Shown here one piece after another: positions 1,713 through 54,785 of a stretch of 54,785 nt of DNA (position 1 is the first letter of the stretch; the number at the start of each line of letters is the position of its first letter). The position numbers and the translations under genes are program-made. This stretch comes from Methanobacteriota archaeon (GTDB taxonomy: Archaea > Halobacteriota > Methanosarcinia > Methanosarcinales > Methanosarcinaceae): contig JAENZL010000001.1 in assembly GCA_016841265.1 (NCBI GenBank), positions 1 to 54,785 of the forward strand, read 5' to 3'. The notes under the pieces were generated by a model, which had not been told where the DNA came from, made no database searches, and saw nothing but the letters and a program-made list of their open reading frames with translations.

Positions 1713-3089
1713 ATGACATTCAGAAAATCATTTGATTGCTACGATTTTTACGACAGAGCAAAAGTCGGAGAGAAGTGCACCCAGGACGACTGGGACCTCA
1801 TGAAAATCCCAATGAAGGCAATGGAGCTCAAACAGAAGTACGGGCTTGACTTCAAGGGAGAATTTGTCCCCACAGACAAAGAAATGATGGGAAAGCTTTT
1901 CAATGCCGGCTTTGAGATGCTTCTGGACCTCGGTATCTACTGTACCGACACCCACAGGATCGTCAAGTACACCGAAGACGAAATCTGGGATGCACTCAAC
2001 AACGTCCAGAAGGAATTCACCCTCGGGACCGGCAGGGATGCAGTCCACGTCTCCAAGAGAGAAGTAGGCGACAAGAAGAAGCCAATTATCCAGGGAGGTC
2101 CTACCGGGTCCCCAATCTCCGAAGACGTCTTCATGCCTGTCCACATGAGCTACGCCCTGGAAAAGGAAGTAGACACCATTGTAGACGGTGTTATGACCTC
2201 TGTCCGCGGCAAGCCTCCAATTCCGGGAAGCCCCTATGAAGTCCTGGCATCAAAGACCGAAACCAGGCTCATCAAGCAGGCAGCAGCAATGGCAGGCCGC
2301 CCAGGCATGGGCATATAGGGCCCTGAGACCTCCCTGTCCGCTCAGGGAAACATTGCATCTGACTGCTACGGCGGCCAGATCTCCTCCGACAGCCACGAAG
2401 TCTCCCAGCTCAACGAGCTGAAGATCGACCTCGATGCAATCGCAGTTATCGCCCACTACAAAGGCAACAGCGACATCATCATGGACGAACAGATGCCAAT
2501 CTTCGGCGGATACGCCGGCGGCATCGAAGAGACCACCATCGTGGACATTGCAACCCACATCAACTCAATCATCATGAGCAGCGCAAGCTGGCACCTTGAC
2601 GGTCCTGTCCACATCCGCTGGGGATCCACCAACACCAGGGAAACCCTCACAATCGCAGGCTGGGCATGTGCAACTATCTCCGAGTTTACGGACATCCTCT
2701 CCGGGAACCAGTACTACCCATGTGCAGGCCCCTGTACCGAGATGTGTCTCCTCGAAGCCTCCGCCCAGTCCATGACTGACACCGCTTCAGGCCGTGAAAT
2801 CCTCTCCGGTGTGGCAGCAGCAAAGGGTGTCGTCACCGACAAGACCACAGGTATGGAAGCCAGGATGATGGGAGAAGTCGCAAGGGCAACAGCAGGCATG
2901 GAAATCGCAGAAGTCAACGGAATCCTCGACAAGCTCGTCGGCCTCTACGAGAAGAACTATGCAAGCGCACCCGCAGGCAAGACCTTCCAGGAATGCTACG
3001 ACGTTAAGACCATCACCCCAACCGACGAATACATGCAGGTCTACGCCGGAGCAAGGAAGCAGCTCGAAGACCTCGGACTCGTCTTCTAA
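1713..3089 (+). CDS. mtmB: Monomethylamine methyltransferase MtmB, with in-frame UAG (pyrrolysine)
   Basis: Moves the methyl group from monomethylamine to the cobalt of MtmC, releasing ammonia. The first frame runs 201 codons to a TAG at 2316-2318; the same frame then continues to a TAA at 3087-3089, giving 458 residues with residue 202 encoded by UAG. This matches the known MtmB family, where residue 202 is pyrrolysine, placed in the TIM-barrel active site. The downstream half shows no frameshift. A conventional caller would split this into a 201-aa and a roughly 200-aa gene; both belong to one protein. It follows mtmC by 15 bp in one operon and is closed by a terminator. Confidence 0.96.
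2316..2347 (+). promoter_or_regulatory. Pyrrolysine UAG codon and adjoining stem-loop in mtmB
   Basis: TAG at 2316-2318 is followed two bases later by CCCTGAG (2321-2327), which pairs perfectly with CTCAGGG (2341-2347). A stem-loop at this place (PYLIS-like) has been proposed for mtmB mRNAs. Its need for read-through is debated: UAG suppression by tRNA-Pyl works without it. Confidence 0.75.
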
Positions 3090-21531: not shown

Positions 21532-22656
21532 TCAGGGAATCAGAGAACGGGGATCGACAAAATCGGGTTTTGTTTCAGCACAGGAATCAGGACTTTTACT
21601 GAAATCAAAAAGGATCAGGTTGGGACTGGAAGTGACTGAAAAGGGATAGAAAAGAGCCCTTAACATGTTTGAGTAATACTGAGTGACGTATTCACGGACC
21701 TTTTCATTGGAATACTCATGGATGAGTTTTATGTATTCATGCCCTTTTTCCGTGGAGACCTCAATGTCACCCCCTATATTGTCTGTCAGGTAGAGTTCCT
21801 TGAAAATCATAATATGTTCGGAGAGAGTGAGAGCATCAGGAGGTTTTCCCGCGAGGAATTCGAAGTCCCTTAGCATATCCGCAACATCAGGCACTCTTCC
21901 GGAGACAAGGTCCTCAAAAATTGTTTTCTGTATGCTGATGCGCTGGTAGTTGTGCTGCATGTAGAGCTGGATGAGATTTTTCCAGAAATCGGGCTTTTTC
22001 CGGATTTCCCGGAAGGTGCTGTCCATGGAACCGAAATGCTCTTCAAAGCCTCTCGGAACCTTTTCATAATCAAGGTACTTAAAACGTTTCAGGTACAGTT
22101 TGGTCACGTTTGACCTGCTATACAGCCCCTGGACATCCAGTTTCATCTGTTTAACCAGGTAAAGAGCAACCCCGTGAGCCAGGTGTTCCCGGAAAGAAGG
22201 ATTGCCGTTTGAGAAAGTAAGAGTGACTGATTCCAGTTCCGGGGCTTCCTGGCATTCTGCAGAAACCTTAATCTTCCAGCCAAGTTTCTCGTAAAGTGTG
22301 TTCAGGTAGTTGATAATTTCAGGGATCTTTCTGAACTTATAAGGATTTATAAGCTCATATATAGTAGATTCATCTATAAGCAGCCCCGAAGTTTTTTTAG
22401 AGAACCATTCAAACATGGTACGGTGTACAAGTATGAATTCGTCCGTCTCAATAAGCTTATTACGAATTTCCATATTTTGAGGAACATCAGTTACGTACTT
22501 TTCAGCATCCAGAGCCATTTTTCCTTCCATTACCCGAGAGGAAATTTCAATGGCGTCCCTTATCGCTGCGCTCAGGTTGCCGTTATTTTGTTCCAGAAAA
22601 GGCTGGAGCTTATCAATATAGCACTGGTCAATCGAGATATTCTTCCGGACTATCAC
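21532..22656 (-). CDS. RHH-domain regulator paralog 1
   Basis: 374 residues. N-terminal ribbon-helix-helix: strand VRKNISI, helix DQCYIDKLQPFLE, then GNLSAAIRDAIEI. It is followed by a long domain shared with the two neighbouring genes (INPYKFRKIPEIINYLNTL, GWKIKVSAEC, HFGSMDSTFREIRKKPDFWKNLIQLYMQHNYQRI) and by a C-terminal alpha/beta part (EYSNEKVREYVTQYYSNMLRALFYPFSVTSSPNLILFDF). Start is GTG. Likely a DNA-binding regulator with a sensing or dimerising C-terminal region; the ligand is unknown. It has an extra C-terminal tail of about 25 residues. Confidence 0.8.
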   Translation of the reverse strand: MIVRKNISIDQCYIDKLQPFLEQNNGNLSAAIRDAIEISSRVMEGKMALDAEKYVTDVPQNMEIRNKLIETDEFILVHRTMFEWFSKKTSGLLIDESTIYELINPYKFRKIPEIINYLNTLYEKLGWKIKVSAECQEAPELESVTLTFSNGNPSFREHLAHGVALYLVKQMKLDVQGLYSRSNVTKLYLKRFKYLDYEKVPRGFEEHFGSMDSTFREIRKKPDFWKNLIQLYMQHNYQRISIQKTIFEDLVSGRVPDVADMLRDFEFLAGKPPDALTLSEHIMIFKELYLTDNIGGDIEVSTEKGHEYIKLIHEYSNEKVREYVTQYYSNMLRALFYPFSVTSSPNLILFDFSKSPDSCAETKPDFVDPRSLIP

Positions 22657-22798
22657 TTAGATTGCCTTCTTCAAACTATTGGGACCAGGCAGGTATTTAA
22701 GCATTAATTGTTCACTCGCCTTGACCATATAGTTGAGTAACACCCACTACCAGATAATTGTAGATTCTCGCTTTTAATTTTTTTGGTGCATGTGTTTA

Positions 22799-22985
22799 AA
22801 AAGTTAGACAGTTGACAGAGAGGGAAAAACGTAGAATGCAGAACTTTGGAGAAAAAAGAGAGGGGAGAGGAAAATTGGAGAGAAAAGAGAAAGGGGGAGA
22901 AAATTGGAGAAAAGAGAAGGGAGGGGAAAAAATCCCAAAAAAGTAAAACATCCTGAAAGGAAATAATCGAGAAAAAGCCGGAAGG
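22799..22985. repeat. Purine-rich degenerate repeat 3' of RHH paralog 2
   Basis: GGAGAGAAAAGAGA-like units with no fixed period on the + strand; in the paralog 2 mRNA this is a U/C-rich 3' tail. Possible multi-U termination zone. No gene. Confidence 0.6.
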
Positions 22986-22989
22986 CTGT

Positions 22990-24042
22990 TTAACACTTTC
23001 CCCTGAATTCGAAAATCAGAAGGTTCGAAACGGCTCTTACCTCAAACTCGTATCCTGCAGCCTGGAACAGATTGGAAAAAAGTTCAACCAATTTAAAGGA
23101 AGCTTTTTCACTGGAAAATTGATGCCGGATTTTTACCTGCATCTTTCCTTCCTCAAAAACCCTTTCGACATCACTTACAAGCTGGGTGACCGAGGACAGT
23201 TTTTTCGTGGCAACAATCATTTCACAAAGCGGAATTTCTCGGATATGTTTGCCTGTAAATTCTTCGAAAAAGCTTGTTATGTCCGGGATTTCTCCAACGA
23301 GGAAAGCTTCAAAAATTTCCTTGTTCAGGTTCACCCTCTGGTACCTTTGCTGCCTGTACCTGCCGATGAGGGAAATCCAGAAATCAGGCCTGCTCTTAAT
23401 CTCCTTGAAAACGGCATCAAAAGCTCCAAAGTGTTTTAAGGTTCCGGGAGGAGGTTCCAGGTCCACGGACCTGTATTCCTTGAGATATATACGGACCGAG
23501 TTTGATTTCCGGTGGACAAAAGAGACGTCCAGATCCATATAAAAGCCAAGGAAAATAGAGATTTTCTCGGAAATGAAAGCTCTGAAACTCGGGTCCCCGT
23601 TTTCGAGTACTATTACTTCGGTTTTATCGTCATCCAGGTGATAGGTCGAAGCTACAAGTTCCCACCCCATATTCCGGCTTCGGGTGTTCAGATACTCCAC
23701 AAGGTCGGGAAGAGACTTTATCCGGTAAGGATTGAAAAGTTCACTTACGATCCCTTCTTCCACGAGAATCCCATCGGTTTTCTCGATCAGCCACCTGACG
23801 GCGAGCTGACTCATTAATATGCATTCTCCACTTTCAATCAGGCTGTTGCGAAGTGCAGGGTACCCGGACTCTTCCCTGAGGTGCTTAATTGCCTCCTCGA
23901 TTGTGTCATATTCCTGTAGTGCAGCTTCGGCAAGTTCGATGGTATCCCTTATTGCCGCACTCAGATTACCAGAGTTATTATCAAGAAAAGGGTGCAATTT
24001 TTGCAGGTACTCATCTTCCATTGAGATATTCTTTCGGATCAC
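22990..24042 (-). CDS. RHH-domain regulator paralog 2
   Basis: 350 residues, start GTG. RHH core RKNISMEDEYLQKLHPFLD and GNLSAAIRDTIELA. Same later domains as its neighbours: NPYRIKSLPDLVEYLNTRSRNMGWEL, the RKSNSVRIYLKEYRSV segment, GTLKHFGAFDAVFKEIKSRPDFW, YRQQRYQRVNLNKEIFEAFLVGE and a final FSSEKASFKLVELFSNLFQAAGYEFEV. It lacks the C-terminal tail of paralogs 1 and 3. The 334-bp gap to paralog 1 suggests each has its own promoter. Confidence 0.8.
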   Translation of the reverse strand: MIRKNISMEDEYLQKLHPFLDNNSGNLSAAIRDTIELAEAALQEYDTIEEAIKHLREESGYPALRNSLIESGECILMSQLAVRWLIEKTDGILVEEGIVSELFNPYRIKSLPDLVEYLNTRSRNMGWELVASTYHLDDDKTEVIVLENGDPSFRAFISEKISIFLGFYMDLDVSFVHRKSNSVRIYLKEYRSVDLEPPPGTLKHFGAFDAVFKEIKSRPDFWISLIGRYRQQRYQRVNLNKEIFEAFLVGEIPDITSFFEEFTGKHIREIPLCEMIVATKKLSSVTQLVSDVERVFEEGKMQVKIRHQFSSEKASFKLVELFSNLFQAAGYEFEVRAVSNLLIFEFRGKC

Positions 24043-24284
24043 TAGCGTTCACCAGAGTTGTTTTTAAAATAAGGTACTTTTAAGCCGGGCATTGAAATTT
24101 GAAACAAATGTCCGTCGTGATTTCCGGATAACGGATGTTTACGGGCATCAGGATGTGAATGAATACCATCCAATACACACTAAGATGTTAATCGATTGTA
24201 TATAAAATTTCTTAAATATTATATAAAATAAGAAGAGCTGTTTTCATGCCGGCCCACATGAAGAAACCGGTGAAGACCTGAAAG

Positions 24285-24465
24285 AACACGAAAGAATCGA
24301 GTGGATACGAAAGAAAAGGAGAGAAAACAAAAGAATCTGAAAGAAAACAAAAGGATCTGAAAGAAAACAAAAGAATCGAAAGAACGCAAAAGAATCTGAA
24401 AGAAAACAAAGGGATCTAAAAGAACACGAAAGAATCGAAAGAACACTAAGGGATCTGAATTAGAC
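24285..24465. repeat. Purine-rich degenerate repeat 3' of RHH paralog 3
   Basis: About 14 loose copies of GAAAGAA(A/C)AC(A/G)AA-(A/G)GATC on the + strand. In the paralog 3 mRNA it is a U/C-rich tail. Confidence 0.7.
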
Positions 24466-24481
24466 CCCAACCCTCATTTAT

Positions 24482-25597
24482 TCAGAATTCCATGCCTTCG
24501 TCCAAAGGACGGGGAAGCCCGGAACTTTCCTTTTCAACTTCCGGGTCATTGAACTCCAATATTGTAAGTCCTTTTAGAGAGGTTACACTGAAACTGTGCC
24601 AGCCTGCCCGGAATACATCAGAAAAAAGACGGACCATTTTGGCACTTACCTTTTCACTGGAATAATTATGGTACACTTTGATGTACTCTTTCCCTTTTTC
24701 CGTGTTAATTTCAACATCGTCCACAAGCTGCGAGGCCATAAACAGGTGCTTGAAAAGAGGGATCAGTTCCGAAAGAGGGATTTCACGGAGCTTGCGCCCG
24801 GCTTTTACCTCGAAATACTTCTTTATATCGGGATATTCCCCTGCAGCAAAAGCTTCGAAGAGGTTCCTGTCGATGTTTATCCGCTGGTAGTTGAAAAACT
24901 TGTATAGTTCGACGAGCGTTTTCCAGAAATCCACTTTTCTTTCGATTTCCCTGTACATACTGTCCATCGACCCGAAATATTTCAGGATCCCTGGAGGGAT
25001 TTCTCCCTGTTCATGCCGTGCAAAGGGTTTCAGGTAGATGGTAGTTGAGTTGGACTTCCTGTGCACTGCTTCCACATCCAGGCTCATCCCCCGCGCCAGG
25101 AAAAGGCAAACTGTTTCCACAACGAGTTCCCTTATATCCCGGTCTCCCCCCAGAAAACTCATACTTGAAAATTCAGGATCAAGTTCCTTGCCGCAGGAAG
25201 CCGAAACCTCCAGATTCCAGCCCATCTTCCGGCTTCGGGCATTTAGATATCCTTCAAGTTCGGACATCGTTCTGATCCTGTAAGGGTTGATCAGCTCATG
25301 GACAATATCTTCATCCAGCAGCCTGCCGGAAGTATTCTTCACAAGCCAGTTCAACACTTGCTGGCTTACCATGACGCCTTCCCCTGACTCCACCAGAGTT
25401 TCCATCCCTCCGAAATCAATTTCACTTCCATTAAGGGAATTTGCGGCTTTTTCCGGAGTCCCGTGCTTTTCCAGAGCGAGATCGGCAAGCTCGATGGCTT
25501 CCCTTACCGCCGCACTAAGATTTCCTCCATGCCGGTCCAGAAAGGGCTGGAGCTTAAGGAGATGAGCATCATCCAGAGAGATGTTTTTGCGAATCAA
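24482..25597 (-). CDS. RHH-domain regulator paralog 3
   Basis: 371 residues, start TTG with GAGGA about 6 nt upstream. RHH core RKNISLDDAHLLKLQPFLD, GNLSAAVREAIELAD. Shared domains: INPYRIRTMSELEGYLNARSRKMGWNL, HRKSNSTTIYLKPF, GILKYFGSMDSMYREIERKVDFWKTL, FNYQRINIDRNLFEAFAAGEYPDI, and a closing YSSEKVSAKMVRLFSDVFRAGWHSFSVTSLKGLTILEF. All three paralogs share this architecture, so they arose by tandem duplication. Confidence 0.8.
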   Translation of the reverse strand: MIRKNISLDDAHLLKLQPFLDRHGGNLSAAVREAIELADLALEKHGTPEKAANSLNGSEIDFGGMETLVESGEGVMVSQQVLNWLVKNTSGRLLDEDIVHELINPYRIRTMSELEGYLNARSRKMGWNLEVSASCGKELDPEFSSMSFLGGDRDIRELVVETVCLFLARGMSLDVEAVHRKSNSTTIYLKPFARHEQGEIPPGILKYFGSMDSMYREIERKVDFWKTLVELYKFFNYQRINIDRNLFEAFAAGEYPDIKKYFEVKAGRKLREIPLSELIPLFKHLFMASQLVDDVEINTEKGKEYIKVYHNYSSEKVSAKMVRLFSDVFRAGWHSFSVTSLKGLTILEFNDPEVEKESSGLPRPLDEGMEF

Positions 25598-39911: not shown

Positions 39912-41464
39912 ATCAGTAGTTCCGAATAGCCGTAGTTCCGAAAAAGAACAACTTCACACAGTCTGGACTGGTTCATAAATCTTAAAAACTCTTATAAGCT
40001 TTTTCATTTGTTATTGATTTCAAACGTATTTTATAAATTACATTTCAAAATAATCATAAGTCGTCCTGTTTTTATCCAAAGCTTCCGCTATCAAACATAG
40101 TAATTTTCTTTGAGATAAATTACATATTATATTCTTAGTAACTGATTGCGTAAATCCCTTTTTCTTGTTTTATTATACATGTTCAAATAATTCAAAAACA
40201 ATTTAAACGGAATTGTGTAAAGTGATTTCAATCCGTATCTTACAACCTTGATTATATCTTCGTTGATCAAAGATTTTAGTTCATATGCCGTAATTTCCAA
40301 AACGGATTTCAACATATTCAAAATGTTATACAATGTACATTGAATAACAAAGAATAACGTTCTTGCTACAGGTGATTTTGTACATGTTCGTATCTTGAAA
40401 TCGTTTTTTACTCTATATCCGGTCTCAATGTTCCATCTTTTCCTGTACTCTTCAGGAATTGACTTTTCAAATTTTTCAATCGATTTTACATCCTTGTTTG
40501 TGGCAAATAGGATGTATCCTTTTTCTTCATCATGTGTTGCAACGAGATTGAAATCTGTTCCTTTTTTATTGAAATGATATTCAAAAACAGTTGATATAGG
40601 CCCATTTTCTCTTTTAAATTTATCAAGTATGCCCATTATTCGTGGAGTGCGTTTGGCTGCAATAACAAAGTTTACATTTAGTTTGGTCAAAGCAGAAATT
40701 GTATCATCATTACAAAATTCCTTGTCCAAATATACTGTACCGACTTTTATTTGCATTTTTTCAAGTCGTTCAAACAAAAATGTAATAAGATCTGAATAAT
40801 TCTTATTTAAACCATTAATTGCAATAACATCAAGTGTAAGTTTAACATCCCCAATGATGTCCAACGTACAATATGAATAGCCCCAATAGCTTCCATTTTT
40901 AGGTTTTATACCAGTTATCAAGGGAGTGTTTTCATCACCATAAAAGGGAATGTTATGAAAATCAATTGCTATGTCATGAACTTTACCTTCAATGTTCATA
41001 CTTTTGAATATATCCCGATTCATGGCTCTAAATGAAGAAAGTATATATTCAACATTATTGCAATTTATGTAATTAAAAATAGTATCAGCTGACGGAATTT
41101 TTGTGAGAGAACTTTTAAGCTTAAGATCGTTGCTTGCAGATTCAAGTGAGTTATTAACAGATGTTGCGGCATGTAGCAATATCGTGAAAATATTTTGGAA
41201 AGTGTATTTTGCACCCTCTGGTAAATTAATTATATTATGATTGCTAAACAGTTCAGATGCTACAGCCATCAAACTGACTGTGGCTAAGGACTCAATGGAA
41301 TCGTTTTTTTGATTCATCATCCAAAAAGATTCCATTAGTCCTACAAAAAGCCTTTTTGATTGAGATTCTAATCTTAGTGTAGCGACTGTTAAGCTTTTTT
41401 AATAAGCGATTAAACTTATGTAATAATCATACATTCGGAACTATGCTCAATCGGAACTACTGAT
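39912..41464 (-). mobile_element. ISH3-like insertion sequence with 31-bp terminal repeats
   Basis: Left end 39912-39942 and right end 41434-41464 are inverted repeats (ATCAGTAGTTCCGA...GTTCCGAA), with about five mismatches. Each end carries two copies of a GTTCCGA motif. One transposase gene fills the element. I could not settle a target duplication: the flanks (GTATTT and TTATGT) are AT-rich. Confidence 0.8.
40127..41335 (-). CDS. Transposase, DDE type (ISH3/IS4-like)
   Basis: 402 residues. Catalytic residues fit D in HDIAIDFHNIPFYG, D in VYLDKEFCND and E in RKRWNIETGYR, followed by ARTLFFVIQCTLYNILNML. AT-rich codon use unlike the host genes near it, as expected for an IS. The frame is intact, so the element may be active. 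The start could also be M6 or M7 of the frame (MESFWMMNQKN). Confidence 0.88.
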   Translation of the reverse strand: MESFWMMNQKNDSIESLATVSLMAVASELFSNHNIINLPEGAKYTFQNIFTILLHAATSVNNSLESASNDLKLKSSLTKIPSADTIFNYINCNNVEYILSSFRAMNRDIFKSMNIEGKVHDIAIDFHNIPFYGDENTPLITGIKPKNGSYWGYSYCTLDIIGDVKLTLDVIAINGLNKNYSDLITFLFERLEKMQIKVGTVYLDKEFCNDDTISALTKLNVNFVIAAKRTPRIMGILDKFKRENGPISTVFEYHFNKKGTDFNLVATHDEEKGYILFATNKDVKSIEKFEKSIPEEYRKRWNIETGYRVKNDFKIRTCTKSPVARTLFFVIQCTLYNILNMLKSVLEITAYELKSLINEDIIKVVRYGLKSLYTIPFKLFLNYLNMYNKTRKRDLRNQLLRI

Positions 41465-41475
41465 TTATGTAATTG

Positions 41476-41542
41476 TTAGGACTTATCTAATTTTTAGGAC
41501 TTATCTAATTTTTAGGACTTATCTAATTTTTAGGACTTACGG
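41476..41542. repeat. 18-nt tandem repeat, three and a half copies
   Basis: Copies of TTAGGACTTATCTAATTT at 41476, 41494, 41512 and a partial one at 41530; degenerate relatives (CTAATTTTTCAGATTTAT) continue to 41639, the surE end. It abuts the IS right end. Confidence 0.9.
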
Positions 41543-41639
41543 ACGGCCAATTTTTCTGATTTATCCAGGCCCTCTGACTTGCCTAATTTTTCAGATTTAT
41601 CTAATTATCAGGCAGACCTAATTATCAGACTTTTCCGAC

Positions 41640-42431
41640 TCAAAAATACTTCTCAATTTCTGAAAACTCGACCCGGGCTGTGGAGTCCAGGGATATGGGA
41701 GTTATCGAGATGTGTTCTTTTTGCATAAGGGCATGCACGTCGGTTCCTTCGGCTTCTTCCTTTATGAGGTCTCCTGCGATCCAGTAGTAGGGCCTGCCGC
41801 GCGGATCGTGACGCTCTTCCACGTCGGTTTTGAAGACCTTCCGGGCGAGGCGTGTGACGTCTATGGGAGTATCCTCTTCCGCGTGGTAAGGGACGTTGAT
41901 GTTCAGGAGGTCCACGGAATCGGGCATGCCGTGTTTGAGGACGTTTCTTGCAATTCTGTTTACGACCTTTATCGCGACTTCGAAACGTTCCCGGTGGTAG
42001 TCCCTGGGGTCATCGAATTTGTCCCCTTCCTCCAGGACCTGGATGGATGCTGCTATTGCCGGAACGCCATAGCTTGCGGCTTCAAGAGCTCCTCCGATGG
42101 TTCCGGAAGTCGTGATCGTATCCGTACTGATGTTTTCCCCGATATTGAAACCTGAAAGGATAAGGTCCGGCATTTCCTTCATGATCGTAAAAATTCCGAG
42201 AATAACCGAATCCGTGGGAGTCCCACCAACGGCATTGGCAGGAACTCCTCCGATATCCGTTTTCGTGATCCTCAGGGGTTCAAAAATAGAGATCGAACGT
42301 CCGACCCCACTCTGCTGCATCGCAGGGGCCGAGATGGTGACTTCCCCGAGATCCGCAACGCTTTCATAAGCAGCTTTGAGACCCGTGGAATAAACACCGT
42401 CATCATTTGTAACAAGGATTTTGGGGGACAT
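41640..42431 (-). CDS. surE: 5'-nucleotidase SurE
   Basis: 263 residues, metal-dependent nucleotide/phosphate monoester hydrolase. The N-terminal SPKILVTNDDGVYSTG holds the metal Asp pair (Asp10-Asp11); VGGTPTDSV and ILSGFNIGENISTDTITTSGT are also typical. The frame is open to 42503, but the ATG at 42431 starts right before the conserved KILVTNDDG. The upstream IS630 copy lies 128 bp away. Confidence 0.92.
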   Translation of the reverse strand: MSPKILVTNDDGVYSTGLKAAYESVADLGEVTISAPAMQQSGVGRSISIFEPLRITKTDIGGVPANAVGGTPTDSVILGIFTIMKEMPDLILSGFNIGENISTDTITTSGTIGGALEAASYGVPAIAASIQVLEEGDKFDDPRDYHRERFEVAIKVVNRIARNVLKHGMPDSVDLLNINVPYHAEEDTPIDVTRLARKVFKTDVEERHDPRGRPYYWIAGDLIKEEAEGTDVHALMQKEHISITPISLDSTARVEFSEIEKYF

Positions 42432-42559
42432 TAGCTTCACTCTTAAGTTTGCTGATGATTTAAAATTAATGGAGGGGAAACCCCCCCTGAAATCGTGATT
42501 CATTTTCTTAAGAATCTGCAGTGAAGAGTGCCTACGATGAATTTTTCAAATTGTTGCTA

Positions 42560-43772
42560 GTGTCGCGTCAATCCTCAAGTGTCGGATAAAGGCGCGATAA
42601 TTTTACTCTTGCATCCTCTGTTGTGAATTGCCAATTAACCTTCGCATTTTTGTTGTTTCTGAATTTTTGCCAGGCCAACACCTCTTTCCTTACAACCTCG
42701 ATGTCATCAATTCTCCTTTTTAAGCACTGACCTGTGAGCACATTTAATTCAATTTCAGCCATATTCAACCAGCTTCCATGTTTTGGAGTGTACACAAACT
42801 CAAACCGATCCCATATTGCCTTCGCCTTCGCTGGTGGAAATACTTCATAGAGAGATCCTGGAATATGTGTGTTTAGATTGTCCATGACCAGCGTAATTTT
42901 ATCTGCATTTTCCTGTTCAAGTAAAATTTCTTCCAGAAAACAAGCCCAATCTCGCTTGGTTTTTCTTTCGGTAATTTTCACCATACGTTTTCCTGCTAAT
43001 GGTTCACAGGCGAGGAATATATTGCACATTCCATAACGCTTGTATTCATAATCATACCTGGCTGGTTTCCCAGGTGAGCAGGGGACAGGAATCCTGGTTT
43101 CTCCAATCAGTTGCTTTGGAGATTCGTCCATGCATATAACAGGGTTTCGTGGATCGAATGGACGTTTATAAACATCCAGAACCATTTCCATATTTGCAAC
43201 AAAGCTACTGTTTTGTTCCGGGGGAATTACCCATCCTTTCCTTTGCCAGGGTTTTATTTCGTTTTTTTAAAGTACGGCGTACTGTTTCATGAGAAATGTT
43301 ATCGATATAGCCAAGCTCTACAACCTTATCAGCTAACAATCTCAAAGACCATCTTGCAAAACCTTCAGGTGGGTCACTGCAACTAAGGGCGACCAAATGG
43401 GCTTCAAAATCACCATCAACTTTTTTAGCATAAACGCGATCTCTTTTTTCCCCGTTGAGGGCAACTTCAAGACCTTCTTCAACAAATCGTTTTTTAACCC
43501 GGTCAATTTTCCTCATACTAATATTCAGAACATGGGAGATTTCTTCATTGGTTGAATGGTTAACGTTCCATTCACCTTTATCACAATTAAGTAAGATCAG
43601 AGCATTGAGAATTTTTTGGGAGTTATGTTTGCCCTTTGAGGTAATTTCACAAAGGGCTTTACGTTCATCTTCGGTAAGTGTCACAGTGTATCTATTCATA
43701 AGTAATCCTCTAGGATTCTTTATGAATTTCATACAATATAATTTTTACGACATTTTATCGTTGACGAGACAC
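42560..43772 (-). mobile_element. IS630-family element flanked by TA
   Basis: Inner ends GTGTCGCGTCAA (42560-42571) and TTGACGAGACAC (43761-43772) are inverted repeats with one mismatch; each is flanked by TA (42558-42559 and 43773-43774), the target that IS630/Tc1 elements duplicate. The element holds one transposase in two frames. Confidence 0.9.
42568..43699 (-). pseudogene. IS630 transposase in two frames (frameshift at a poly-A run)
   Basis: Frame 1 (43699 down to 43205, start MNRYTVTLTEDERKAL) has a helix-turn-helix and ends in frame near VRRTLKK. Frame 2 (open from about 43262 to 42568) continues WVIPPEQNSSFVANMEMV and holds the DDE residues: MDESPKQLIGE, VMDNLNTH and HGSWLNMAEIELN. 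The change lies at seven A (plus-strand T7, 43262-43268). Deleting one A or slippage restores one protein. IS630 elements of archaea often use programmed frameshifting, so this may be functional. The ORF of 207 aa alone is the C-terminal part. Confidence 0.8.
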
Positions 43773-45607: not shown

Positions 45608-46009
45608 TTAACCCTCTGCCTCGATTGCTTCGACAACCCGCCTGCAAACCCTATCCATCAGCACCCAGTAATCCCTTATCTGATGATAGATCTCTTCTAC
45701 AGCTTCTTCGTCGTAGGTGTGAGTACTGAGGTTCCTATCATCGGTCATTTCAAGAGTTTTCACTGTTTCTTCTTCCGAAAGGATGCCTACTTTGAATGCT
45801 TCTCTGAAACAGGACTTTGGAGAAGCACACTCGATACCTTCCCTGACTCGAAGGTAATCCTTGATAAACTTCCAGAAAATGTCAAATGAATATTCAAATC
45901 TCTTAATTGAAGCATCTCTTATGATCGTTGAATAAGACTCTTCGGTTATTTCGTGTAAAGTTTTCAAAGCTTTTGTAGCAGATTCAGCTCTGAGTTTTAA
46001 TTTTTCCAT
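45608..46009 (-). CDS. HEPN (HI0074-type) toxin/substrate-binding protein
   Basis: 133 residues. Nearly all helical with the R-x4-H motif of HEPN RNases at Arg92-NLST-His97 and a following Tyr (HTY). In MNT-HEPN pairs the HEPN protein is a ribonuclease toxin or substrate-binding partner, controlled by nucleotidylation. It overlaps the MNT gene by 13 bp, and both should be translated together. The antitoxin is read first. Confidence 0.85.
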   Translation of the reverse strand: MEKLKLRAESATKALKTLHEITEESYSTIIRDASIKRFEYSFDIFWKFIKDYLRVREGIECASPKSCFREAFKVGILSEEETVKTLEMTDDRNLSTHTYDEEAVEEIYHQIRDYWVLMDRVCRRVVEAIEAEG

Positions 46010-46308
46010 AAAACACCATCTCTAAGCGCCTTTTCTCTAAAGGCATCCGTAACTTTGGAAAGATCTACTACATCAACAGTGTAGGGGATATTAAGATCAT
46101 CAATTTTTTCTTTTAACAAAACCAATTTTTTCTTGTCCAGACTTTTTTCCGGAATGATCCCAATATCAAAATCTGAAACTCTACTATAATCTCCCCTTGC
46201 CCGCGAACCAAAAAGTATCACGACAACGTTTTCATCCTTGAAAATCTCAATAACAAGAGATTTCAAATCATGGACGCTTTTTTGATAGATAGGAGAAAGA
46301 CTACTCAT
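45997..46308 (-). CDS. MNT-type nucleotidyltransferase (antitoxin MntA-like)
   Basis: 103 residues, minimal nucleotidyltransferase. Catalytic motif GSRARGDYSRVSDFDIGI at about 34-51 gives G-S and the Asp46-x-Asp48 metal pair; a third Asp is expected in TVDVVDL (about residue 80). In the MntA-HepT system it adds AMP to the HEPN partner and stops its RNase. It is first gene of the pair. Confidence 0.87.
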   Translation of the reverse strand: MSSLSPIYQKSVHDLKSLVIEIFKDENVVVILFGSRARGDYSRVSDFDIGIIPEKSLDKKKLVLLKEKIDDLNIPYTVDVVDLSKVTDAFREKALRDGVLWKN

Positions 46309-46402: not shown

Positions 46403-46591
46403 CTACTCGAAGATAAATCCCTCATGGACGCAGAGGTAGTCTTTCAGGAGCCTGCTGAAGATTTCGACGCTGCGGTTGAATCTGAGGAGAGCGGCGTCAC
46501 GGATGATTGGGGAGTAGGGTTTGGAGAGGACTTCGTGGAAGGGTGTGAGAGATTTTGTTGTGAGTTCGAGTTTAAGGTTCAGGTTTTGCAT
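46403..46591 (-). pseudogene. Truncated HEPN copy
   Basis: 62 residues matching the N-terminal 60 of the complete HEPN protein: NLNLKLELTTKSLTPFHEVL against KLKLRAESATKALKTLHEIT, then PIIRDAALLRFNRSVEIF against TIIRDASIKRFEYSFDIF. It ends before the R-x4-H site, so it is a broken copy, or a stub left when an MNT-HEPN pair was lost. Confidence 0.75.
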
Positions 46592-46799
46592 TGATCCTTA
46601 GTTCCCAAATTTTAAGCGCATATAAGTATTATGTGGTCTCAATTGATGCCGATTTTGAAGTCAAATCAAAAAAACCATGTGCGTATAATTTAAGCACATA
46701 GTTCAATGTCGGGTGGCCTTTATGCGCCTAAAAATGCGGAATCCAGGATTGATTGTTCCTTGATGTCTATTTGCTTAAAATTATCTGAACTTCCTGAAA

Positions 46800-48548
46800 T
46801 TATGGCCTGATAGTCACATTCGTTAAAGTTACCAAAAACAAACCCAGAGTTAACCAGCCTAAAAATCCTTCAATCATAACCCATTTTCTGAACTTATCTT
46901 TTGGATACCAATCTCCATACCCAATTGTAGCAAAGGTGACCATACTGAAATAAAAGGCATCAAAAAAGGATACTTCTTGAATACAATTTTCAGCTGTTGT
47001 TAATCGAGAAATTCCAAGATTAGGCCAATCAATCTTGGGAATGAATCTTCGGAGACTTTCTGGAAGTGATCTGTGAATACGATCTATGTTTTTTCCATTA
47101 CGCAAAGAAATAGTAGGACAACCTAGATAAATAAAAGAGAATAGCAGAACAATTAAACCACCTAAACCAAATGCACGAAAAGGTTTCACACCATATCCGC
47201 AGGTAAGCCACATAAATATATCCCCCCATTTTGGAAACGAAATCCATGGCCATTCTGTTTGGAACGAAATCCACGATTTTTCCGCTTGACGGAGTTTTCG
47301 GTACTGGTAATATGCTGCATCAGCTTCTTCAAACTGTTCAAGATTTCTGAAATTACGAACTAATGTTGCATATGTTAGTCCATCAAAAACAAGTGAATTT
47401 TCAAGGGAATCCCATCTGACCTCCATTTCGTTGAAATCAGTACCATTTAGTGAAACGCTTTTAAATGTAGTATCTGAAAAGGAGACAGTGTCAACAAAAG
47501 TAGCACTTTCAAAGTCAGCAGAATTGCCAAAAGTAGAATCAGAGAAGTCGGCGGAATCGCCAAAAGTAGATCCTGTAAAGTGGGCAGAATCGCCAAAAGT
47601 AGAATCAAAGAAGTAGGCGGAATCGCCAAAAGTAGAATCAGAGAAGTCGGCGGAATCGCCAAAAGTAGAATATGAGAAGGAGGCAGAATCACCAAAAGTA
47701 GACACCCAAAAGTCGGCGGAATCGCCAAATTTAGATATCCCAAAGTAGGCAGAATCACCAAAAGTAGACGCCCAAAAGGAGACAGAATCGCCAAATTTAG
47801 ATCCTGTAAAGTGGGCAGAATCGCCAAAAGTAGAATCTAAGAAGTAGGCGGAATCGCCAAAAGTAGAACCTGAGAAGTCGGCGGAATCACCAAAAGTAGA
47901 ATATGAGAAGTCGGCGGAATCACCAAAAATAGACGCCCAAAAGGAGACAGAATCGCCAAAAGTAGATCCTGTAAAGTGGGCAGAATCGCCAAAAGTAGAA
48001 TATGAGAAGTAGGCAGAATCGCCAAAAGTAGAACCTGAGAAGTCGGCGGAATCGCCAAAGGTAGATCCAGAGAAGGAGACAGAATCGCCAAAGGTAGATC
48101 CAGAGAAGGAGGCAGAATCACCACAATATATACATATAAAATTAGCTGTGGGAGCGCAATTTAGTTCAACGAAGGATAATGATTTTTTAAATAGTACACT
48201 CAAAAAATTAAGATCATTTTCAAAAATTGAATTATGGATTGTGATATTGCTTTCAACAACCTTCAATTCTTCATTGATTCTAAAAGATTCCAGACTTTTT
48301 TTGTTGAATCCATGCTCCAATAATTCATAATACTTCGGATTTGGAATAGTTTCAAGCTCAATTTTGCTTAAATTAAACTCTCCAATTATACGGCAATTTT
48401 CAAGATATACATCTTCTCCATTTTCTATTTGTTTCAAAATATCACTTGCCTGGACTTCTCTATATTCTACTGCCAGACTAACCATTGACATGGAAATGAG
48501 CACTAAAAATGAAAAAATAGCCCAAAAAAATAAAATCCTGAACCTCAT
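46800..48548 (-). CDS. Pentapeptide-repeat protein fused to a two-helix K+ channel
   Basis: 582 residues. N-terminal hydrophobic signal or anchor (about 5-26), a short linker, then about 19 decapeptide units (two pentapeptides each; pattern F-G-D-S-A-x-F-x-x-S-T) over residues about 140-345, expected to fold as a quadrilateral beta-helix. Then a helix-rich linker (LRQAEKSW) leads to the pore: helix FGLGGLIVLLFSFIYLG, P-loop with TIGYGD at about 541-546 (K+ selectivity filter), and helix WVMIEGFLGWLTLGLFLVTL. A two-TM channel with a beta-helix domain on the outside of the membrane (if the first segment is a signal) or inside (if it is a helix). The gene sits in the accessory region next to TA genes. 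Confidence 0.88.
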   Translation of the reverse strand: MRFRILFFWAIFSFLVLISMSMVSLAVEYREVQASDILKQIENGEDVYLENCRIIGEFNLSKIELETIPNPKYYELLEHGFNKKSLESFRINEELKVVESNITIHNSIFENDLNFLSVLFKKSLSFVELNCAPTANFICIYCGDSASFSGSTFGDSVSFSGSTFGDSADFSGSTFGDSAYFSYSTFGDSAHFTGSTFGDSVSFWASIFGDSADFSYSTFGDSADFSGSTFGDSAYFLDSTFGDSAHFTGSKFGDSVSFWASTFGDSAYFGISKFGDSADFWVSTFGDSASFSYSTFGDSADFSDSTFGDSAYFFDSTFGDSAHFTGSTFGDSADFSDSTFGNSADFESATFVDTVSFSDTTFKSVSLNGTDFNEMEVRWDSLENSLVFDGLTYATLVRNFRNLEQFEEADAAYYQYRKLRQAEKSWISFQTEWPWISFPKWGDIFMWLTCGYGVKPFRAFGLGGLIVLLFSFIYLGCPTISLRNGKNIDRIHRSLPESLRRFIPKIDWPNLGISRLTTAENCIQEVSFFDAFYFSMVTFATIGYGDWYPKDKFRKWVMIEGFLGWLTLGLFLVTLTNVTIRP

Positions 48549-54432: not shown

Positions 54433-54785
54433 ATGAACCGGGAAGGATCCGTAGACCTGAAAGGAAAAAATACGCCCGAAGATAATGTTCCGGCGCATCC
54501 GTCTCCTTGCAGCGAGTCAGGGCACTCTTATCTGAAAGTACCGAACAGACTGTCAGTAGCTAACCTTCAAATCCATAGAACGTCAGTAGCTAACCTTCAA
54601 ATCCATAGAACGTCAGTATCTAACCTTCAAATCCATAGACCGCCAACTTCTAACCTTCAAATCCATAGAAAATCAGTAGCTAACCTTCAAATCCATAGAA
54701 CTTCAGCTTCTAACCTTCAAATCCATAGACCGTCAGCTTCTAACCATCAAATCCATAGACCGTCAGCTTCTAACCATCAAATCCA
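54433..54785 (+). CDS. Partial ORF with a decapeptide tandem repeat, runs off the window
   Basis: ATG at 54433 has GAGGGG about 7 nt upstream. A 40-residue head (NREGSVDLKGKNTPEDNV..., mixed polar) is followed from residue 41 by a 10-residue repeat, S-V-A-N-L-Q-I-H-R-T and close variants, at least eight units; the frame is open to the last base. Variation between units is all non-synonymous, so coding is not proved. If real, it is a repeat-rich surface or structural protein, or a non-coding array that happens to be open in one frame. Confidence 0.45.
   Translation, partial: MNREGSVDLKGKNTPEDNVPAHPSPCSESGHSYLKVPNRLSVANLQIHRTSVANLQIHRTSVSNLQIHRPPTSNLQIHRKSVANLQIHRTSASNLQIHRPSASNHQIHRPSASNHQI
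54551..54785. repeat. 30-bp tandem repeat, eight units, continues beyond the window
   Basis: Units start at 54551, 54581, 54611, 54641, 54671, 54701, 54731 and 54761 (last one cut). Bases 10-15 (CTAACC) and 17-29 (TCAAATCCATAGA) are constant; bases 1-9, 16 and 30 vary. The variable part is not a CRISPR spacer: it is too short and too similar between units. Confidence 0.95.

Follow-up and report, generated by a model that had tools for sequence, protein, structure and literature searches.

Gene organization and the repeat array

Positions 46800–48548 of the window (the whole stretch of 54,785 nucleotides that was analysed, from a Methanosarcina-like archaeon) carry, on the minus strand, one intact open reading frame free of frame errors that codes for a protein of 582 amino acids. 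The features recognized in it are listed below.

46800..48548, minus strand: whole gene, coding a signal peptide + beta-helix + two-helix K+ channel-type protein (ORF, Pfam, AlphaFold)
48471..48548, minus strand: residues 1–26, Sec-type signal sequence with MRFR n-region, hydrophobic core and SLA followed by VE (sequence; AlphaFold helix 2–21; rule-based family calls)
48123..48470, minus strand: residues 27–142, N-terminal cap and less regular beta-helix coils, with the conserved ILKQIENGEDVYLENCRIIGEFNLS motif
47496..48122, minus strand: residues 143–351, 19 tandem 11-residue (33-bp) units GDSADFSGSTF
47925..48056, minus strand: units 3–6, first copy of the four-unit order D / Y / H-TG / VS-WA
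47760..47891, minus strand: units 8–11, second copy of this order, 165 bp on
47421..47495, minus strand: residues 352–376, degenerate unit and C-terminal end of the beta-helix
47238..47420, minus strand: residues 377–437, helical linker (helices 390–402 and 406–423; RNFRNLEQFEEADAAYYQYRK; AlphaFold)
47190..47237, minus strand: residues 438–453, short helix M0 (FPKWGDIFMWLTCGYG) with Asp443 (AlphaFold)
47124..47183, minus strand: residues 456–475, membrane helix TM1 (AlphaFold)
46929..46967, minus strand: residues 528–540, pore helix (AlphaFold)
46911..46928, minus strand: residues 541–546, selectivity filter TIGYGD (sequence, Pfam)
46812..46898, minus strand: residues 551–579, membrane helix TM2 with the conserved Glu560 (AlphaFold)

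The repeats match Pfam Pentapeptide_3 (PF13576) in 7 stretches with 117.1 bits against a curated cut-off of 27 bits (E 3.7e-34). The carboxyl terminus matches Ion_trans_2 (PF07885) with 50.4 bits against a cut-off of 22.5 (E 2.1e-13), the TxGYGD filter being present as TIGYGD. The AlphaFold model of the full protein, built with 24 homologues, has a mean pLDDT of 89 (~97 in the repeat array) and features a helix at residues 2–21 followed by a beta-helix at residues 30–376. A second model of the last 207 residues (60 homologues) is consistent with it. The pore domain is under purifying selection, as its dN/dS between this copy and relatives is 0.19–0.34. An exported beta-helix joined to a K+-type pore is well supported as a prediction from sequence and structural model. 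The first-pass annotation had described a K+ channel pore joined to a large beta-helix, which is borne out by Pfam, by profile matches in the PDB and by AlphaFold/Foldseek. Two grounds for doubt that it had named, a frame error in this copy and a lack of close fusion homologues, fall away: the frame is open over its 582 amino acids and fusion homologues are common in Methanosarcinia.

The profile of the pore domain is shared with KirBac, K2P and TOK K+ channels (E 1e-7 to 1e-5), whose C-terminal Kir domain or second pore domain is missing here. Membership of the Kir/KirBac group was ruled out because the chain ends 3 residues past TM2, with no C-terminal cytoplasmic immunoglobulin-like domain. 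The beta-helix is of the pentapeptide type found by Foldseek in the pentapeptide repeat proteins MfpA, EfsQnr and AlbG, from which the protein differs by its 11-residue units (5+6) throughout, by the fused pore and by its predicted export.

Tandem Repeats Finder assigns to the array a period of 33 bp and 18.5 copies. Reading in frame gives 19 near-identical 11-residue units GDSADFSGSTF, in agreement with the earlier count of about 19, and then one degenerate unit. The units are not the decapeptides described at first: this reading was ruled out by the period of 11 here and in homologues, and across the family the 11-residue period is generally stronger than the 10-residue one. As the unit measures 33 bp, five units span 165 bp rather than the 150 bp initially given. 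Each unit has two short strands in the AlphaFold model. One four-sided coil of ~22 residues would correspond to two units, and the whole beta-helix would have roughly 16 coils and a length of some 75 Å.

A unit order recurring every five units had also been reported. It stands for two blocks, units 3–6 and 8–11, which are identical at 125 of 132 bases, but not beyond them, since the third D/Y/H run (units 15–17) lies seven units further along. Units 7–10 and 14–17, likewise seven units apart, match at 123 of 132 bases. When the order of units was shuffled, the pair 3–6 and 8–11, taken as best diagonal run, had p values of 0.045 for DNA and 0.14 for protein. The proposed growth of the array by block duplication is likely but weakly supported, and its rhythm is not strictly one of five units. 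Orthologues differ widely in array length, the copy of genome G159 having about three units against 19 here; this short-array copy also has a 5' frame break and has lost nine residues after the filter. Two channel genes of the family (L006, 3995–5682; L054, 562–1885) are broken by a frame break within the repeat array, which could be real or a sequencing error in the repeats of metagenome assemblies.

Note that a second, unrelated open tandem array, made of 30-bp/10-amino-acid units (SVANLQIHRT), is found on the plus strand at 54433–54785 and continues at 434–1162 of L152. Its predicted ORF of 242 amino acids extends beyond the window end and across a short run of masked bases, the frame shifts later, and it may not be a gene.

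Distribution of the family and of the selectivity filter

A paralogue (L010) is present in the same genome, and orthologues adjoin glyS in other Methanosarcinaceae. Of 238 genomes of the class, 66 have the pore/linker domain; one family (f7, probably Methanotrichaceae) reaches as many as ten matches in a single genome, and more distant relatives occur in haloarchaea. The architecture common in Methanosarcinia starts with the N-terminal motif, the 11-residue pentapeptide-type array and a linker with YYQYR, and continues with CGYGVRP, TM1, P-loop, TM2 and a short tail. The haloarchaeal pentapeptide-repeat/ion-channel proteins (L072, L074, L085 and others) share a pentapeptide-type array, YGxxPxR, TM1, TLGYGD, TM2 and the short tail, but they lack a signal peptide, have a Cys/His-rich N-terminus and few positive loop residues, and are expected to have the ordinary orientation with the repeats inside. 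No homologue was found on plasmids, the viral fold library gave nothing convincing, and no description of pentapeptide-repeat K+ channels of methanogens was found in the open literature.

At the homologous position of the filter, copies from Methanosarcinales and of ANME-1 type have T[VIL]G[YS]GD, most haloarchaeal copies have TLGYGD, and nearly all sampled Methanotrichaceae copies carry unrelated letters. The filter-bearing rows outside haloarchaea all belong to one 22-row clade (SH-aLRT 99), within which the filter was lost several times; in the well supported clade containing this copy it is kept in most rows. Sequences such as TFGNND, FMSHNN and MSYKEW are found where it was lost, while filterless members (L005 3977–5548, L019 223–2055, L045, L069 and L009) keep the rest of the pore scaffold. 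The loss in many relatives implies that the scaffold needs no K+ selectivity, and from the filterless or decaying copies (L005, L016, L019, L045 and L069) it is evident that some lineages can do without conduction. The protein could be a surface beta-helix anchored by a vestigial, non-conducting channel fold whose filter survives in some copies only. Most Methanotrichaceae and several Methanosarcinaceae copies, which are without filter yet keep M0, Glu560 and both helices, are in keeping with this explanation, as is the L016 copy with its 5' frame break and 9 residues lost after the filter. The conservation of TIGYGD in this copy, that of the filter in most rows of its clade and the low dN/dS of the pore domain make it quite unlikely here.

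Export signal and orientation of the pore

Signal peptides were called by our own rule and proteins with unclear starts were set aside. A positive n-region, a hydrophobic core and an acidic start of the mature part are found in 50 family members, with mean charges of +1.38 in the n-region versus −1.50 at the mature start and an AxA-like site in 47 of the 50. All 11 filter-bearing Methanosarcinia-type copies whose N-terminus is known carry the signal; the haloarchaeal and many Methanothrix relatives do not. The pattern suggests that the beta-helix of this protein is probably outside the cell, in line with the surface position of the repeats put forward previously. The roles of gate, ligand sensor or surface-bound cap had been offered at the same time without a choice among them. 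Sequon and cysteine content was uninformative as a surface marker.

Known K+ channels have the N-terminus of TM1 in the cytoplasm. Here both AlphaFold models place one 20-residue membrane helix (residues 456–475) between the beta-helix and the P-loop. If the signal puts the repeats outside, a single helix before the P-loop would therefore bring the latter inside, and the pore would be inverted. Signal and helix count, taken from sequence and model, make inversion relative to ordinary K+ channels about an even bet for this protein. The signal-less relatives, including the haloarchaeal channels, should have the ordinary orientation. This topology is what is new here, and the inverted pore is the consequence that the first-pass annotation missed.

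The parity problem would be settled without inversion if the M0 segment (438–456), whose helix adjoins TM1, crossed the membrane: there would be three spans, with the repeats outside and the pore in its ordinary orientation. However, M0 is a helix of 16 residues whose mean hydropathy over 19 residues is 0.3–0.4 against 1.8 for TM1, and it carries Asp443, a near-invariant residue with and without signal that is conserved outside haloarchaea. M0 is not more hydrophobic in signal-bearing members than in signal-less Methanosarcinia-type members, and its properties are the same in signal-less relatives, which have no need of a third span. M0 is too little hydrophobic to be a likely membrane span, and the three-span topology is very unlikely.

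Differing orientations should be revealed by the positive-inside rule. The C-terminal domains were aligned and K+R counted in the TM1–TM2 loop, in the flanks and in the tail, with the following results for loop K+R, loop K+R density, K+R in the 12 residues after TM1, K+R before TM1 and C-tail K+R.

Signal and filter: mean 8.9 (n=11, range 4–20); 0.121; 2.64; 4.9; 1.0
Signal, no filter: mean 5.7 (n=41, range 3–16); 0.098; 1.83; 4.7; 1.2
No signal, no filter (Methanosarcinia-type): mean 1.8 (n=25, range 0–5); 0.039; 0.28; 6.4; 2.4
Haloarchaeal rows: mean about 2 (n=33, range 0–4); 0.040; 0.55; 6.5; 1.9

The loop has 3–20 K/R in the 52 signal-bearing proteins versus 0–5 in the 58 others, and values of two or less are found in 0 of 52 signal-bearing rows versus 20 of 25 signal-less Methanosarcinia-type rows. 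The density gives the same answer, so that the difference is not explained by loop length. The charges before TM1 and in the C-tail shift opposite to those of the loop, as expected in the direction that inversion predicts, although the stretch before TM1 is still positive in signal-bearing members (4.7–4.9 K/R in 32 residues), whose balance of charges lies close to zero instead of being firmly inverted. In the 12 residues just ahead of TM2 the groups did not differ in the direction expected. C-tail charge was dropped as a clean marker of the signal, because it was clean in a first sample and less so on wider sampling. Mann-Whitney tests of the charge differences give very small p-values, which do not take kinship into account. 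A tree from which the loop was left out shows at least six switches of the signal, and in independent signal/no-signal pairs the loop charge changed as expected or was equal, never opposite; with only 3 such pairs lying on starred branches, a sign test could not reach significance. The charge distribution gives good but not conclusive support to inversion. That a single archaeal family holds one K+-channel-type pore module in both orientations, switched repeatedly by gain or loss of the signal with compensating loop charges, is a tentative proposal whose chances fall a little below even.

Related channels, neighbouring genes and other features of the window

Among solved structures, the Hailong anti-phage effector HalA, a channel, has the two-domain build nearest to this one. 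It is the best fold match over beta-helix and pore and a close one over linker and pore, a similarity that is not proof of homology. Against the whole model, Foldseek gave HalA (9nyi) a probability of 1.00 and E 5.8e-4 with TM-scores of only 0.23/0.36. In the search with the C-terminal domain it takes third place by E-value, with TM-scores of 0.41/0.27, the query value of 0.41 being the highest among the matches listed. Several sequence queries of the PDB gave no match to HalA among the best 60 listed. HalA is controlled by the nucleotidyltransferase HalB, whereas the protein described here carries an export signal. The channel of HalA is blocked by HalB poly-dA adducts (PMC13275509); together with the fold match this suggests, by analogy, that beta-helix/K+-channel fusions form a broader class in which gating is exerted through the helix. 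Genes possibly relevant to such control are found downstream of the channel gene.

46406..46597, minus strand: fragment of an NTase_sub_bind (HI0074-like) gene, downstream of the channel
45997..46308, minus strand: Pol-beta/MNT nucleotidyltransferase, full length, 103 amino acids, syntenic neighbour
45608..46009, minus strand: NTase_sub_bind protein, full length, partner of the MNT gene

An NTase_sub_bind-family gene directly follows the channel in 7 of 7 Methanosarcinaceae glyS-locus copies, often broken and partly together with a Pol-beta/MNT nucleotidyltransferase. The protein might thus be a HalA-like channel of ordinary orientation which is not exported and whose cytoplasmic beta-helix binds an internal (nucleotide?) signal, perhaps from this neighbouring nucleotidyltransferase, to gate the pore. 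HalA as the top Foldseek match of the whole model, there bound to oligo-dA, speaks for this arrangement, as do the block by HalB adducts, the conserved gene neighbourhood and the haloarchaeal and many Methanothrix relatives without signal. It is nevertheless unlikely, as all filter-bearing Methanosarcinia copies whose start is known have a Sec-type N-terminus, and loop charges are sharply unlike those of signal-less relatives. Nucleotidyltransferase genes are also absent from the examined flanks of the paralogue L010 and of the ANME-1 copy, and PADLOC gave no match for the channel. The nearby nucleotidyltransferase is of the 103-amino-acid MNT type with its own NTase_sub_bind partner; its likeness to HalB is only putative and its place beside the channel may be mere synteny. 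A beta-helix that is exported, as predicted, could not meet a cytoplasmic signal.

The inverted K+ pore is established for GluR0, the K+-selective ionotropic glutamate receptor of Synechocystis, and the proposed ancestor of glutamate receptors is a K+ channel that was inverted and joined to an external binding protein (PMC6385376). The predicted plan shared with GluR0 comprises an extracytoplasmic sensor-like domain, M1, a P-loop with K+ filter and M2, in a pore that would likewise be inverted relative to KcsA-type channels. GluR0 has a split substrate-binding-protein domain; here there is an N-terminal beta-helix, with few residues after M2. No sequence relation to GluR0 was found, and membership of the ionotropic glutamate receptors was ruled out by the lack of a binding-protein domain split by the pore and of anything after M2. 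By analogy, the protein may work like GluR0.

In the inverted arrangement, the signal sequence would direct the chain to the Sec translocon, as its pattern suggests, and the beta-helix would fold outside. From the helix count, and in agreement with the charge distribution, TM1 would run out-to-in and the P-loop with TIGYGD would enter from the cytoplasmic side; TM2 would then run in-to-out, leaving the chain end outside. Speculatively, binding of a ligand, the S-layer or strain at the surface might open the pore through a shift of TM1 and the helical linker. The functional plan would be that of GluR0 with a beta-helix replacing the glutamate-binding domain, in a two-domain build like that of HalA. 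We give even chances to a K+-selective channel, presumably a tetramer, of which the protein is one subunit, with its beta-helix at the surface and its pore inverted.

If true, there would be a natural inverted K+ pore that does not belong to the glutamate-receptor line, and the flip from which ionotropic glutamate receptors are proposed to have arisen would have a living example. The family would also give archaea a surface-sensing type of K+ channel and would show the fate of a channel scaffold after loss of the filter. Its importance is that it seems to have the same pore both ways up: with a signal-less (ordinary) and a signal-bearing (apparently inverted) pore, the flip would be testable by moving one signal peptide.

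Further features were noted in the window. Likely insertion sequences are found at 40127–43732 on the minus strand, a few kilobases from the channel gene, with a transposase-like ORF (40127–41335) and an HTH + DDE_3 pair (42568–43732). Three tandem paralogues of 374, 350 and 371 amino acids (21532–25597, minus strand), spaced by short tandem repeats, have in common a ribbon-helix-helix-like start, MIRKNIS...LSAAVREAIEL. On the plus strand, a methyltransferase frame (1713–3089) is interrupted at codon 202 by a single in-frame TAG, which, read as pyrrolysine, gives one open protein of 458 amino acids. We take it to be probably the dimethylamine methyltransferase MtbB, pyrrolysine TAG codons being known for Methanosarcina.
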